Source: Rhodobacteraceae bacterium CG17_big_fil_post_rev_8_21_14_2_50_63_15 (GTDB lineage Bacteria > Pseudomonadota > Alphaproteobacteria > Rhodobacterales > Rhodobacteraceae). Taken from it: a DNA stretch of 64,000 nt. A program made the position numbers and the translations under genes. Location: assembly GCA_002783205.1 (NCBI GenBank), contig PFEY01000094.1, positions 962-64,961 of the forward strand, written 5' to 3'. The first letter of the stretch is position 1, and every line of letters starts with the position of its first letter. The notes below the pieces were generated by a model. The model did not search any database. It was not told the origin of the DNA and worked only from the letters and a program-made list of their open reading frames with translations. Positions 32,551 to 37,213 of the stretch are shown here, piece after piece.

Positions 32551-32916
32551 TCAACTTCTTCTGAGATAGCCCGAGTCTACTGCGCGGATCAGCCTGCGTT
32601 CCAGCACCCGCAGCACCGCGCGCAGATCATGGCCTCGTTTCAACACACGGCCATCCATGCCGATCACCGCATATTGCCCCTGCTTGCCGTGCAGCCCCGG
32701 CCGCTTTTCGATACGGTAGAGCGGATGTTCCGCCGTGCGGCGAAAGATCGAAAATACCGCCGTCTCGCGCAGGCAGGAAATCCCGTAGTCGCGCCATTCG
32801 CCCGCTGCCACCATACGCCCGTAGATCGACAGGATGACGGCCAGTTCCGGGCGTTGGAACGCCACCTGCTCGGCCCCTTGGGTCTGTGTGAACGGGTATG
32901 GCGGTTGCGCGTTCAT
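32551..32916 (-). CDS. DUF2794 family protein
   Basis: 121 aa conserved alphaproteobacterial protein of the DUF2794 family. Typical segments are VAFQRPELAVILSIYGRMVAAGEWRDY, FSIFRRTAEHPLYRIEK and GQYAVIGMDGRVLKRGHDL. No signal peptide or membrane segment. Function unknown. The 156 bp on the left, between it and the convergent hydrolase gene, contain no feature I can name. Confidence 0.8.
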   Translation of the reverse strand: MNAQPPYPFTQTQGAEQVAFQRPELAVILSIYGRMVAAGEWRDYGISCLRETAVFSIFRRTAEHPLYRIEKRPGLHGKQGQYAVIGMDGRVLKRGHDLRAVLRVLERRLIRAVDSGYLRRS

Positions 32917-32985: not shown

Positions 32986-33426
32986 TCATGCCCGATGTTC
33001 GGTTGGCACCCAATCGGCGGGATCGCGGTTCCAGAATCGGTTGGGATTGTCCTCGTCCATGCCGCGCCGGTGACGACAGCGCCGCGCGGGCACGAGGTGG
33101 ATCACCGGTTCCTCATAGGGATGGGCGCCGTAGATCGCGTGGATCAGCGCCTCAAGCACCGCGCCCTCGGCGGTGGTGAAGATCTGCCATTCGACGCAGG
33201 GCACCTGCATTGTCTCCTCGGTGGCCCGATTGCGTCCGCCGCCGCGCGACCGGAACCTCTGCAGCCCAGTCGAGCTGTGAAACGACACCCGGTCGTAATC
33301 GCCATGGGCCAACGGATCACATTCCAGCACGGCCGCCTCGATCCGTGGCAGCGCCTCGGCAGGACATTGGACCAGGATGCGCAGCCCGCTTTCGATCCGA
33401 TAGCGATCCGGTTCACGGTCACCCAT
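32986..33426 (-). CDS. NIF3/YqfO-type domain protein
   Basis: 146 aa. The C-terminal half carries LIHAIYGAHPYEEPVIHLVPA, the signature of the CutA-like domain inserted in NIF3/YqfO proteins, here as a stand-alone protein. The N-terminal half (LRILVQCPAEALPRIEAAVLECDPLAHGDYDRVSF) supplies the matching ferredoxin-like strands. Probably a small trimeric metal- or ligand-binding protein; function unknown. It overlaps the end of the upstream regulator gene by 8 bp. Confidence 0.7.
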   Translation of the reverse strand: MGDREPDRYRIESGLRILVQCPAEALPRIEAAVLECDPLAHGDYDRVSFHSSTGLQRFRSRGGGRNRATEETMQVPCVEWQIFTTAEGAVLEALIHAIYGAHPYEEPVIHLVPARRCRHRRGMDEDNPNRFWNRDPADWVPTEHRA

Positions 33427-34105
33427 GGGCCGGCACCTGCGGATCGTTCCCGATCACCGCGGCAAACGCGCACCTTCCCCGCTCGCTCATCTGCAGGCCG
33501 CGCCGGGGCCCTGCGGGATGCACCCAACCCTCGGCCAGGGCGTGATCGAGAATTGCCCGGCCCAGCACCCCGCCGAGGTGCTCGCGACGCTCGGACCAGT
33601 CGAGACAGGGCTTTGCCACGACCATGCCCACCCCGTCTGGAAAGACCACGCCGAGCGTGCTCCAGACAGGCGAGCGCTGCGCCACCATTCCTTCGCCCTC
33701 ATGCCGGAGCGCGCCCCGGCCGATCAGCGCATCGCAGAGCGCGACGGCAACGGCACCGCCAAGATGGTTGTAGCAGCATCGAAGCAGGGCAAGGTCTGCC
33801 GCCCTTGCCCGCTGCGCACGCACCAAATGATCGAAAGGGGCAAGCCCCGAGACATGCTCCAGCATCGCCGCCACCTCTGGCCCCGCGATCCGGTGATAGA
33901 GACAACGCCCGCTGCGCCGCTGCGTGATCAGCCCCGCCTCTTCGAGATGGCGCAGATGCACGCTTGCGGTCTGAGCGGTGATGCCAGCATCGGCAGCCAG
34001 TTCCTTGTTCGTCCAGGCGCGCCCGTCCATCATCGCACAAAGCATCCGGGCGCGGCTTGCATTGGCAAGGGCATGGCCCGTGATATCCAGTCTCGGCATC
34101 GTCAT
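33419..34105 (-). CDS. ArsR-family winged-helix transcriptional regulator
   Basis: 228 aa. The N-terminal winged helix-turn-helix (about residues 5-80: ALANASRARMLCAMMDG, TNKELAADAGITAQTASVHLRHLEEAGLI, GRCLYHRI) is of ArsR type. A longer C-terminal region with a CCYNHLGG motif and WVHPAGPRRGLQMSERG is shared by a subgroup of ArsR proteins. The Cys pair could sense metal or oxidants. The ATG at 34105 was preferred over a TTG 14 codons upstream; ATG 34099 is also possible. It overlaps the NIF3-like gene. Confidence 0.75.
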   Translation of the reverse strand: MTMPRLDITGHALANASRARMLCAMMDGRAWTNKELAADAGITAQTASVHLRHLEEAGLITQRRSGRCLYHRIAGPEVAAMLEHVSGLAPFDHLVRAQRARAADLALLRCCYNHLGGAVAVALCDALIGRGALRHEGEGMVAQRSPVWSTLGVVFPDGVGMVVAKPCLDWSERREHLGGVLGRAILDHALAEGWVHPAGPRRGLQMSERGRCAFAAVIGNDPQVPAHG

Positions 34106-34192
34106 GTCGACAGTCTGCGTCGGAGTGCGGGCAAGGTCCAGCGCCAACGCTTCGCTCGGTGACTGAGGATCAGTACCTGTGCATCCGGGGCC

Positions 34193-35839
34193 TCAGCCAA
34201 AGCGCCCCTGACAGAACCAGCCACCCGAGATCTGCGCCCCATGCGCCTGGAAAAGCCAGAGCCGCTCGCCGCGTGTCGTGACCACCTGCCAGTAATCGCG
34301 CAGCCCCGTGCGCCAGTCGGGATCCTCCAGCCACCATTCCGGCGCGATCCGCTCCGGCCCGAGGGCCCCGGCCACCTCATGCGACCGCCCGCGCCAGTGA
34401 AAGAGGTGAAGCGGGGAGTTGCCCGGCACATCGCGCAACCGTTCGGGCCGCCACAGCAGCAGCGGACGCGGCAGGGGGGGCACCGGCCAGGGCGCCGGGG
34501 CCGGCTCGGACCAGGCGGCGGGCAGGATCAGCGCCGATTTCTCGGGGATCAGGCTTTCGGCCGGGTGGCGGCGGGTGATCGCCTCGAGCCCGATGCGCAT
34601 GCCGAGACGGGTGATCAGATCGGCCAGCGCACCGCTCTCATCGTCCACCCTGCGCAGGGTCTCGAAACGGGTCTCGCTCTGCTGCGGCGGAACCGGATCG
34701 GTTGCAACCGCTTCGAGCCGCAGCCGGTCGATGCCAAAGCCCGCCTCGATCGCCTCTAGTCGCATCGCAAAGAGCGGCAGAAGGCTCTCGGGCCTGTCCG
34801 CCGGACGCGCAAGACGCAGATCGACCGCCTGATGGCTGCCATCAGTGCGAAACACCTCGAATCGCAGATGCCGCGCGCCCTGCCCCCTGTCGCGCAACAT
34901 CCGGCAGAGCCGGGTTGCCAGACGCTCCAGTCCCGCGCGCAGATCGTCCTGCAACCCGATCGGCTCGGGCAGGCTCAGACGGGTAGCAAAGCAAGGCTGC
35001 GGGGCCGCGGGCGAGACCGGTTCGGGAACAAGGCCAAGCGCCTGATCGAGCCGCAGCATGACCTCGGGACCGAACCGCCGCCCCAGAGCGGCACGCGGCT
35101 GTCCCATCAGATCGCCGATCCGTCGCAGCCCGAGACGGCCCAGATCCTGCACCACGGTCTCTGGCAGGCGCAAGGCCGCCACCGGCAAGGGGGCAAGCAC
35201 GCTGTGCAACTGGCCTTCGGGCGCGATCTGTCCGGCCTCTGTCCTGCCCTGCGCCATCGGGGGAATGCCGCCGCGCTCCCAGGGCCTGCGCCGCGCGGCG
35301 CGCGAGCGGGTGGCGCGGGCCTCCTGCTCGATCGCGTCACCCGGCCGGCCCGGCCCGGCCTCCTGCCCGGCAAAGCGCGCCAGGGCCCAGGCCGCGCCCA
35401 CCGTATCGGCCAGCCCGCACCGCGCGCTCAGCCCCAGCCCGGCGGCCTCTTGCCCGACCATCCGCAGCACCCCCGCCTCGCCGCCAAAAAGATGCGCGCA
35501 ACCGGTGATGTCGAGCATCAGCCCAGCCTCGCCGTCGATCCCCACCAGCGGCGAGAACCGTTCCGCCCAGCGGCCAAGCACGCGCAGGAAGGCCGCCTCG
35601 GCAGCCCGGTCCTGTGGCCAGGTCCGCAGATCGGGACAGAGCGCGCGCGCCTCGCGCAGGGGCTGGCCACGCCGCAACCCCGCCGCCTCGGCCTCTGCCG
35701 AAAGCGACGCCAGAACCGGTCGCGCCCCATCCTCGGCCACCGTCGCAAAGGGCTGCGTGGCGATATCCCCCGCCCGCCGCAAAAGACGCTCGGCCGCAAG
35801 CCGGGGAAACCAGACAGAGAGCAGACAACGAGGCGGCAT
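34193..35839 (-). CDS. imuB: ImuB, catalytically inactive Y-family polymerase homologue
   Basis: 548 aa. ImuB is the hub of the ImuA-ImuB-DnaE2 mutasome for SOS translesion synthesis, binding the beta clamp and DnaE2. The N-terminal sequence (CLLSVWFPRLAAERL) aligns with the Y-polymerase start but lacks the catalytic Asp, and the palm motif is GEAGLMLDITGCAHLFGG, as expected for a non-catalytic ImuB. Helix-hairpin-helix pieces (LGLRRIGDLMGQPRAALGRRFG) follow. No imuA lies upstream and no dnaE2 downstream, unlike the usual cassette. An SOS box lies 10 bp before the start. Confidence 0.87.
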   Translation of the reverse strand: MPPRCLLSVWFPRLAAERLLRRAGDIATQPFATVAEDGARPVLASLSAEAEAAGLRRGQPLREARALCPDLRTWPQDRAAEAAFLRVLGRWAERFSPLVGIDGEAGLMLDITGCAHLFGGEAGVLRMVGQEAAGLGLSARCGLADTVGAAWALARFAGQEAGPGRPGDAIEQEARATRSRAARRRPWERGGIPPMAQGRTEAGQIAPEGQLHSVLAPLPVAALRLPETVVQDLGRLGLRRIGDLMGQPRAALGRRFGPEVMLRLDQALGLVPEPVSPAAPQPCFATRLSLPEPIGLQDDLRAGLERLATRLCRMLRDRGQGARHLRFEVFRTDGSHQAVDLRLARPADRPESLLPLFAMRLEAIEAGFGIDRLRLEAVATDPVPPQQSETRFETLRRVDDESGALADLITRLGMRIGLEAITRRHPAESLIPEKSALILPAAWSEPAPAPWPVPPLPRPLLLWRPERLRDVPGNSPLHLFHWRGRSHEVAGALGPERIAPEWWLEDPDWRTGLRDYWQVVTTRGERLWLFQAHGAQISGGWFCQGRFG

Positions 35840-35848
35840 GGCAGGCTT

Positions 35849-35863
35849 GTTCTTTTTTTGTTC
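35849..35863 (-). promoter_or_regulatory. LexA (SOS) box upstream of imuB
   Basis: Exact GTTC-N7-GTTC direct repeat, with N7 a run of T (GAAC-A7-GAAC on the coding strand of imuB). This is the established LexA site of alphaproteobacteria. It ends 10 bp before the imuB ATG, so LexA binding would cover the start or leader region. Confidence 0.8.
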
Positions 35864-35933
35864 CTGTTTCTAGGTCGGGGGAAGGCGGGAGTCGAGTCCG
35901 TTCGTCGGCGGACCAAAGGGAGACTGGCGGGTC

Positions 35934-35999
35934 TGAGTATTTGAAGGAACAGTGAAAGACGGGCGCGCGTTTCCTCTTTCAGCGTTCTGCAAATACTCA
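35934..35999. repeat. Two inverted copies of an intergenic repeat
   Basis: Plus-strand copy: TGAGTATTTG then AAGGAACAGTGAAAGA (from 35934). Minus-strand copy, read from 35999: TGAGTATTTG then CAGAACGCTGAAAGAGG. The first ten bases are identical, and the next 16 or so nearly so, making a convergent pair that nearly meets in GGGCGCGCG. This TGAGTATTTG-GAAC-TGAAAG element resembles short repeats I associate with Rhodobacteraceae intergenic regions. It occupies the gap between imuB and adhC (35840-36100), which holds no gene. Confidence 0.65.
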
Positions 36000-36100
36000 T
36001 ATCGCGCCCACCACCGGGCAGATCGCGGTTGCGGGCGGGATTGCAAAGCCAGGCACATTCCCGCACAGTCCGGCCAAACCCAGAGCAAGAGGACGGATCA

Positions 36101-37213
36101 ATGCGCACAAGAGCCGCGGTCGCCGTGGAGGCTGGCAAACCGATGGAAATCATGGAGGTCAATCTCGACGGCCCGAAGGCGGGCGAGGTTCTGGTCGAGA
36201 TCAAGGCCACGGGCCTCTGCCACACCGATGATTTCACGCTCTCGGGGGCGGATTCCGAGGGCGCGTTTCCGGCCATTCTGGGGCATGAGGGGGCGGGCGT
36301 CGTGCTGGAGGTGGGCCCGGGCGTGACCAGCCTCGAACCCGGGGATCATGTGATTCCCCTCTACACGCCGGAATGCCGCGAATGTGAGTATTGCCTCAAC
36401 CCGAAAACCAATCTCTGTCAGGCGATCCGCTCGACCCAAGGCCAAGGCGTGATGCCCGATGGCACCTCGCGCTTCTCGATGCTCGATGGCACGCCGATCC
36501 TGCATTACATGGGGTGTTCTACCTTCAGCAATCACACCGTCCTGCCCGAGATCGCGCTGGCCAAGGTGCGCAAGGACGCGCCGTTCGACAAGATCTGCTA
36601 TATTGGCTGCGGCGTGACCACTGGCATTGGCGCGGTGATCAACACCGCCAAGGTCGAGATCGGCAGTCGTGCCATCGTCTTTGGTCTGGGCGGCATCGGT
36701 CTCAACGTCATTCAGGGCCTTCGACTGGCCGGAGCGGATCAGATCGTGGGGGTTGATCTCAACCCCGGCAGGGTCGAGATGGCCACTCGCTTTGGCATGA
36801 CCGATTTCGTCAACCCCAGGGAGGTCAGCGGCGATCTGGTCGCGCATCTGGTGGCGCTCACCGGGGGCGGCGCGGATTACACATTCGATGCCACCGGCAA
36901 TGTGCAGGTGATGCGCACGGCGCTCGAGGCCGCGCACAAGGGCTGGGGCGAAAGCATCATCATCGGCGTCGCGCCGGCGGGGGCCGAGATCTCGACCCGT
37001 CCCTTCCAGTTGGTGACGGGGCGGTCGTGGCGGGGCACGGCCTTTGGCGGCGCGCGCGGGCGCACCGACGTGCCGAAGATCGTGGACTGGTACATGCAGG
37101 GCAAGATCGAGATCGACCCGATGATCACTCACCGCCTGACGCTCGACGAAATCAACAAGGGATTCGAGTTGATGCATGCCGGCGAGAGCATCCGCAGCGT
37201 CGTGGTCTATTGA
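36101..37213 (+). CDS. S-(hydroxymethyl)glutathione dehydrogenase / class III alcohol dehydrogenase
   Basis: 370 aa zinc alcohol dehydrogenase. It oxidises S-hydroxymethylglutathione, formed from formaldehyde and glutathione, to S-formylglutathione, and also reduces S-nitrosoglutathione. Catalytic-zinc ligands are in GLCHTDDFTLSG and LGHEGAGVV; the structural zinc site is CRECEYC...NLC; GLGGIGLNVIQG binds NAD; TGRSWRGTAFGG is typical of class III. AGAGGA precedes the ATG. An esterase gene (fghA) that often follows is absent; a glutathione-dependent YghU comes next. Confidence 0.93.
   Translation: MRTRAAVAVEAGKPMEIMEVNLDGPKAGEVLVEIKATGLCHTDDFTLSGADSEGAFPAILGHEGAGVVLEVGPGVTSLEPGDHVIPLYTPECRECEYCLNPKTNLCQAIRSTQGQGVMPDGTSRFSMLDGTPILHYMGCSTFSNHTVLPEIALAKVRKDAPFDKICYIGCGVTTGIGAVINTAKVEIGSRAIVFGLGGIGLNVIQGLRLAGADQIVGVDLNPGRVEMATRFGMTDFVNPREVSGDLVAHLVALTGGGADYTFDATGNVQVMRTALEAAHKGWGESIIIGVAPAGAEISTRPFQLVTGRSWRGTAFGGARGRTDVPKIVDWYMQGKIEIDPMITHRLTLDEINKGFELMHAGESIRSVVVY

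Follow-up and report, generated by a model that had tools for sequence, protein, structure and literature searches.

The error-prone repair machinery of this genome is distributed over four separate loci, namely imuA, imuB, the body of dnaE2 and a standalone OB-fold gene, each accompanied by a predicted LexA-type box. This arrangement is best read as a scattered SOS mutasome regulon, which extends over some 45 genera, derives from one main ancestral event and uses the separate OB protein in trans in place of a domain of DnaE2; the probability of this reading is roughly three in four. The first component, imuB, lies in the window (the whole stretch of 64,000 nucleotides that was analysed), together with its control element and neighbours:

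32551-32916, minus strand: DUF2794 gene, a neighbour outside the system.
33419-34147, minus strand: ArsR/SmtB-type regulator, a neighbour outside the system.
34193-35839, minus strand: imuB, 548 aa, predicted inactive Y-family polymerase homologue with an ImuB-type C-terminus.
35849-35863, no strand assigned: LexA (SOS) box GTTCTTTTTTTGTTC, a perfect GTTC-N7-GTTC match 9 bp before the imuB ATG.
36101-37213, plus strand: frmA/adhC, S-(hydroxymethyl)glutathione dehydrogenase (TIGR02818 above cut-off), a neighbour outside the system.

In profile searches, the imuB reading frame scores above the cut-offs of both Pfam IMS and IMS_C. It matches the ImuB proteins of annotated imuA-imuB-dnaE2 cassettes at 42-44% over the full length, and the alignment reaches their C-termini, so that the ImuB-C extension is present. 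The region of DinB Asp8 is WFPRL-like in all 29 aligned ImuB relatives, while the Asp103/Glu104 columns are variable. The loss of these acidic Y-family residues predicts a non-catalytic protein. The initial annotation of a lone, non-catalytic imuB under a perfect GTTC-N7-GTTC box is therefore upheld, with a distance of 9 bp to the ATG in place of the 10 bp given there. It had also named an intact cassette elsewhere, which would make this a second imuB, as a finding that would speak against it; a search of the whole assembly returned a single imuB and no intact imuA-imuB-dnaE2 cassette.

The gene adjacency of the canonical one-unit cassette is absent, with frmA and the ArsR gene flanking imuB, imuA on contig C81 and dnaE2 on contig C112. 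The surroundings are conserved to different degrees: frmA/adhC lies within 1.5 kb of imuB in 17 of 29 other genera and the DUF2794 gene in 13 of 29, and the ArsR/SmtB-type regulator is rarely conserved (1 of 29). The ArsR-type regulator and small genes described downstream of imuB are indeed present. The upstream gap of 261 bp had been called filled with repeats, which is too strong, as it contains no direct repeat and, of inverted ones, three pairs that are short and imperfect. An imperfect inverted repeat, TGAGTATTTGAAG / CTGCAAATACTCA, is located between imuB and frmA (window positions 35934-35999), and the longer motif is unique within the window.

Taken alone, the single box in the window is weak evidence, because chance alone would yield 1.3 matches to the GTTC-N7-GTTC motif in 64 kb. 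The box of imuB, which reads GAACAAAAAAAGAAC on the coding strand, is taken as real because 28 of 30 imuB loci have a perfect upstream box at a constant place and in a constant orientation, compared with 1 of 30 for the reversed-pattern control. Across the family, perfect boxes are likewise found at 30 of 30 imuA loci and 29 of 30 OB loci, with reversed-pattern controls of 0-1 in 30. The perfect boxes of the standalone OB genes are all in the GTTC orientation, and those of imuB and imuA all in the GAAC orientation. In nearly all split genomes, the dnaE2 box is either perfect or GAACAAAANNNGAAT, that is, GAACAAAA-NNN-GAAT. Since recA of the same genome also has a perfect box, this motif is a plausible form for the functional SOS box of the organism. 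The conservation of these boxes near promoters in the relatives defines a predicted SOS regulon.

The other three components are found on other contigs of the same genome:

C81, 6938-7555: imuA, with a perfect box 8 bp before the ATG.
C112, 21148-22327: 5' part of dnaE2, with the one-mismatch box GAACAAAACGGGAAT upstream; the gene is cut by the contig end.
C63, 35701-36204: standalone OB gene of 167 codons, with the perfect box GTTCTATTTTTGTTC 2 bp before the ATG.

The imuA gene was identified using ImuA of the annotated D. shibae plasmid cassette as query (43%), the NCBIfam ImuA model NF033429 being too weak for this purpose; in this genome the model gives only matches below cut-off, to recA on C82 and to imuA on C81. 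The readable part of DnaE2 scores 332 bits against NF004225 (positions 4-384) and extends to residue 393, where C112 ends; 10 relatives in the genus serve to predict its 3' end. ImuA, ImuB and DnaE2 are thus all encoded in this genome. The proposal that the cassette had been split with the SOS box kept on imuB is borne out, while the two further suggestions, that imuA had been lost and that SOS control persisted on imuB alone, do not hold: imuA is present under its own perfect box, and dnaE2 is boxed too, with one mismatch as opposed to the perfect matches at imuA, imuB and OB.

These results bear on an alternative, suggested in part by the initial annotation, in which the gene in the window is a functionless relic, an orphan of a decaying cassette. 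Such decay would fit the isolation of imuB in the window and its complete absence from 3 of 20 genomes of the genus. However, the gene is full length, its box is kept at nearly all loci compared, and imuA, dnaE2 and OB are found elsewhere in the same genome, each with its own box, making a relic highly improbable.

The box of imuB appears older than the scattering. Of the intact cassettes of the family (L261-L273), 13 of 13 carry a perfect box, mostly GAACAAATCAGGAAC, in the last part of the imuA reading frame, directly upstream of imuB, and no perfect box occurs within 300 bp upstream of imuA in these cassettes. Because the intact cassettes already carry this element, imuB would have owned a box before the cassette broke up.

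In most, though not all, DnaE2 proteins, the polymerase chain itself includes a C-terminal OB domain. The C63 gene is this C-terminal OB domain without the polymerase part. The best NCBIfam match of its product is the DnaE2 model NF004225, at positions 944-1040 (2e-32), and the Pfam OB fold PF01336 is matched at 9e-14. The AlphaFold model is confident over approximately residues 10-110, and its Foldseek matches are OB-fold proteins. A sequence search against solved structures gives weak matches only, the best being E. coli Pol III alpha. Comparison with congeners yields dN/dS values of 0.07-0.30 for the OB genes, indicating purifying selection, and 28 residues are invariant across an alignment of 45 sequences. 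One and the same ferredoxin gene adjoins OB in 29 of 29 family loci and 12 of 12 further loci (41 of 41), as well as in a D. shibae-like genome; in the own genus this is the case in 9 of 12 loci.

In 45 genomes the corresponding DnaE2 bodies terminate near model position 938, with a short tail of variable sequence following the motif HPxALLRxxLTP, while in full-length DnaE2 the same residues run on into the OB domain. The PHP-Pol3-(HhH)2 core is preserved, with both polymerase Asp motifs retained in 44 of 44 split bodies of the relatives. In none of the 45 genera and 10 congeners is the OB domain part of the same chain, all of these proteins ending at the linker; in the ten congeners, the dnaE2 stop likewise follows shortly after HPxALLRxxLTP. 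A few split-body tails (G114, L216; G059, L257) end in HPRxxRxF, similar to the extreme C-terminus of full-length DnaE2, which gives the impression of an OB domain excised from inside the protein.

An apparent dispersal and truncation of this kind could also be mimicked by contig breaks and frameshifts, and the present assembly, with 114 contigs and a dnaE2 gene cut at a contig end, would invite such an explanation. It is nevertheless the least probable of those considered. Closed or nearly closed genomes (e.g., G040, G012, G029 and G096) are organised in the same way, their mutasome genes being separated by hundreds of kb, and so is G030, which in addition to the scattered set on its chromosome holds an intact cassette on another contig. 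Furthermore, the DnaE2 bodies end at one place with differing stop codons, and imuB, imuA and OB of the present genome are internal to their contigs and have their own boxes.

The extent of the scattered state was assessed in a family sample of one genome per genus, covering 121 genera. A split DnaE2 occurs in 45 of these; it is accompanied by a standalone OB gene in 43, and in the other two, G039 and G059, no OB was detected. The present genome aside, as its dnaE2 is cut, OB is found in the company of no split dnaE2 in just two others, G046 and G056. The co-occurrence corresponds to a Fisher value of 5e-28 over the 121 genera, a figure not corrected for shared ancestry. The imuB gene is adjacent to dnaE2 in 59 of 66 genomes with the full-length form and in 2 of 45 with the split form. 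The other finding that the initial annotation had named as speaking against it, a split order shared by the relatives, thus largely applies: the scattered order is common to about 45 of 121 genera, and within this clade there is nothing unusual in an imuB that stands alone.

Within the genus, OB accompanies all 10 split-dnaE2 genomes and none of the 9 others. In the ten split genomes, a B-type imuB is located away from dnaE2, at a distance of 24-64 kb in five of them; some genes are cut or interrupted in G124 and G138. Of the remainder, four have neither a complete dnaE2 nor OB, and five (G123, G128, G133, G137 and G139) lack a standalone OB and have imuB adjoining a full-length dnaE2, which suggests that an acquired cassette replaced the scattered set in these congeners.

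The pattern of co-occurrence also bears on the chief competing explanation, according to which DnaE2 simply dispenses with its OB domain, the freed OB protein serving as an independent SOS-induced ssDNA-binding or regulatory factor, acting for instance on RecA or at gaps. The constant position of OB beside the ferredoxin gene, away from dnaE2, is in line with such independence, as are the genomes in which one partner occurs without the other (OB without dnaE2 in G046, split dnaE2 without OB in G039 and G059; exceptions for which the main reading has to account) and the existence of C-family polymerases without OB domains (PMC3919608). An independent role would, however, leave unexplained why OB is kept with split DnaE2 in all but two of the 45 genera and is missing from every genus genome without split dnaE2, and the DnaE2 OB sequence has been retained under purifying selection instead of drifting away. 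Independence of the OB protein is therefore considered unlikely, although it is the most serious of the alternatives. As for G046 itself (L284, L285), imuA, imuB and OB are kept and dnaE2 was not found in its 7 contigs, which are rated 100% complete.

In a class-wide sample of 289 genomes, nearly all OB matches lie inside full-length DnaE2. Standalone-looking matches in G085, G089, G192, G382, G383, G330 and G346, mostly near contig edges, were left uncounted; the one in G085 proved to be the terminal part of an unsplit dnaE2. Outside the family, short OB frames are present in G387 (C2:472555-472842, L376) and G392 (C1:3792722-3793087, L377), with no perfect SOS box nearby. Both end in the DnaE2 C-terminal motif SRDF[HR] and may be dnaE2 remnants.

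Phylogenetic analysis of the DnaE2 bodies unites all split sequences and Oceanicella actignis in one group with an IQ-TREE bootstrap of 100. Within this group, 43 split sequences (all except G077, with the long branch of G084 included) cluster at a bootstrap of 76, and FastTree joins 42 of them (without G084 and G077) with a support of 0.995. The OB tree recovers the same grouping, with the exception of the fast-evolving G084. As far as sequences can tell, the agreement of the two trees indicates one main origin of the split state. In the sister lineage Oceanicella actignis, as well as in G004, the next one outside, dnaE2 is boxed and stands apart from imuA/imuB with its OB domain still attached. 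Since these lineages possess a solitary, SOS-boxed dnaE2 with OB, scattering probably came first and was followed by the split of DnaE2 from OB at the domain linker. In G077 (L276, L260), OB is contained in a 400-aa frame with a long N-terminal part and a box near the frame start, and the ferredoxin neighbour is lacking; this may represent a second, independent split.

The scattered regulon would operate as follows. Upon DNA damage, activated RecA would promote LexA cleavage and thereby the joint derepression of the four promoters. ImuA would bind ImuB, and the inactive ImuB would recruit the complex to the primer terminus and the clamp, where the DnaE2 body would copy past the lesion in an error-prone manner. 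For the way in which these three proteins come together, the known mutasome (PMC10421592, PMC6511836) serves as the model. The separate OB protein would stand in, in trans, for the template (ssDNA)-binding domain of the DnaE2 C-terminus, an action that we infer. A more demanding version, in which DnaE2 works only with the small OB subunit in trans and the SOS response controls mutagenesis through the assembly of an enzyme of four parts, each expressed from an unlinked promoter of its own, has about even chances of being correct.

The usual picture of damage-induced mutagenesis is that of a single operon producing a single complex. In a large group of Rhodobacteraceae, the operon has been dismantled, predicted LexA control is placed on each piece, and the polymerase has been cut at a domain boundary. 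These bacteria offer a natural experiment on the role of the DnaE2 OB domain, which, being encoded separately, is open to deletion or titration, and equally on co-regulation in place of linkage. Surveys that seek contiguous cassettes, or that label DnaE2 as OB-less, misjudge such genomes.

With the canonical LexA-controlled imuA-imuB-dnaE2 cassette, for example that of D. shibae pDSHI03 (a plasmid cassette named in PMC9426580), the present system shares the same three proteins and the same type of LexA box. Unlike in that cassette, imuA, imuB and dnaE2 lie here at separate loci with one box each, and the OB domain of DnaE2 forms a fourth gene. The mycobacterial split into imuA'-imuB and dnaE2 (PMC10421592, PMC6511836) likewise involves more than one locus, all damage-induced, a property predicted here from the boxes; mycobacteria, however, have two loci as opposed to four, and their DnaE2 is not described as split. 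Standalone ImuB-C variants (PMC6511836, PMC12926913) resemble the present case in that one mutasome domain has become a gene of its own by modular fission. In those variants ImuB-C is freed and ImuA is missing, whereas here ImuA is present, the ImuB C-terminus is kept and the freed domain is the OB of DnaE2. DnaE2 proteins without OB were already noted in 2013 (PMC3919608); they are likewise truncated bodies and may include some of the present ones. A separate OB gene was not found mentioned there, whereas the present genomes have one, which carries an SOS box and is inherited together with the split body. The literature searched yielded no account of a DnaE2 OB domain encoded as a gene or protein apart, and a split polymerase with a separately SOS-controlled OB domain appears to be undescribed. 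The machine itself is of a known type, and its four-locus form, with the polymerase split, seems to be a hitherto unreported variant.
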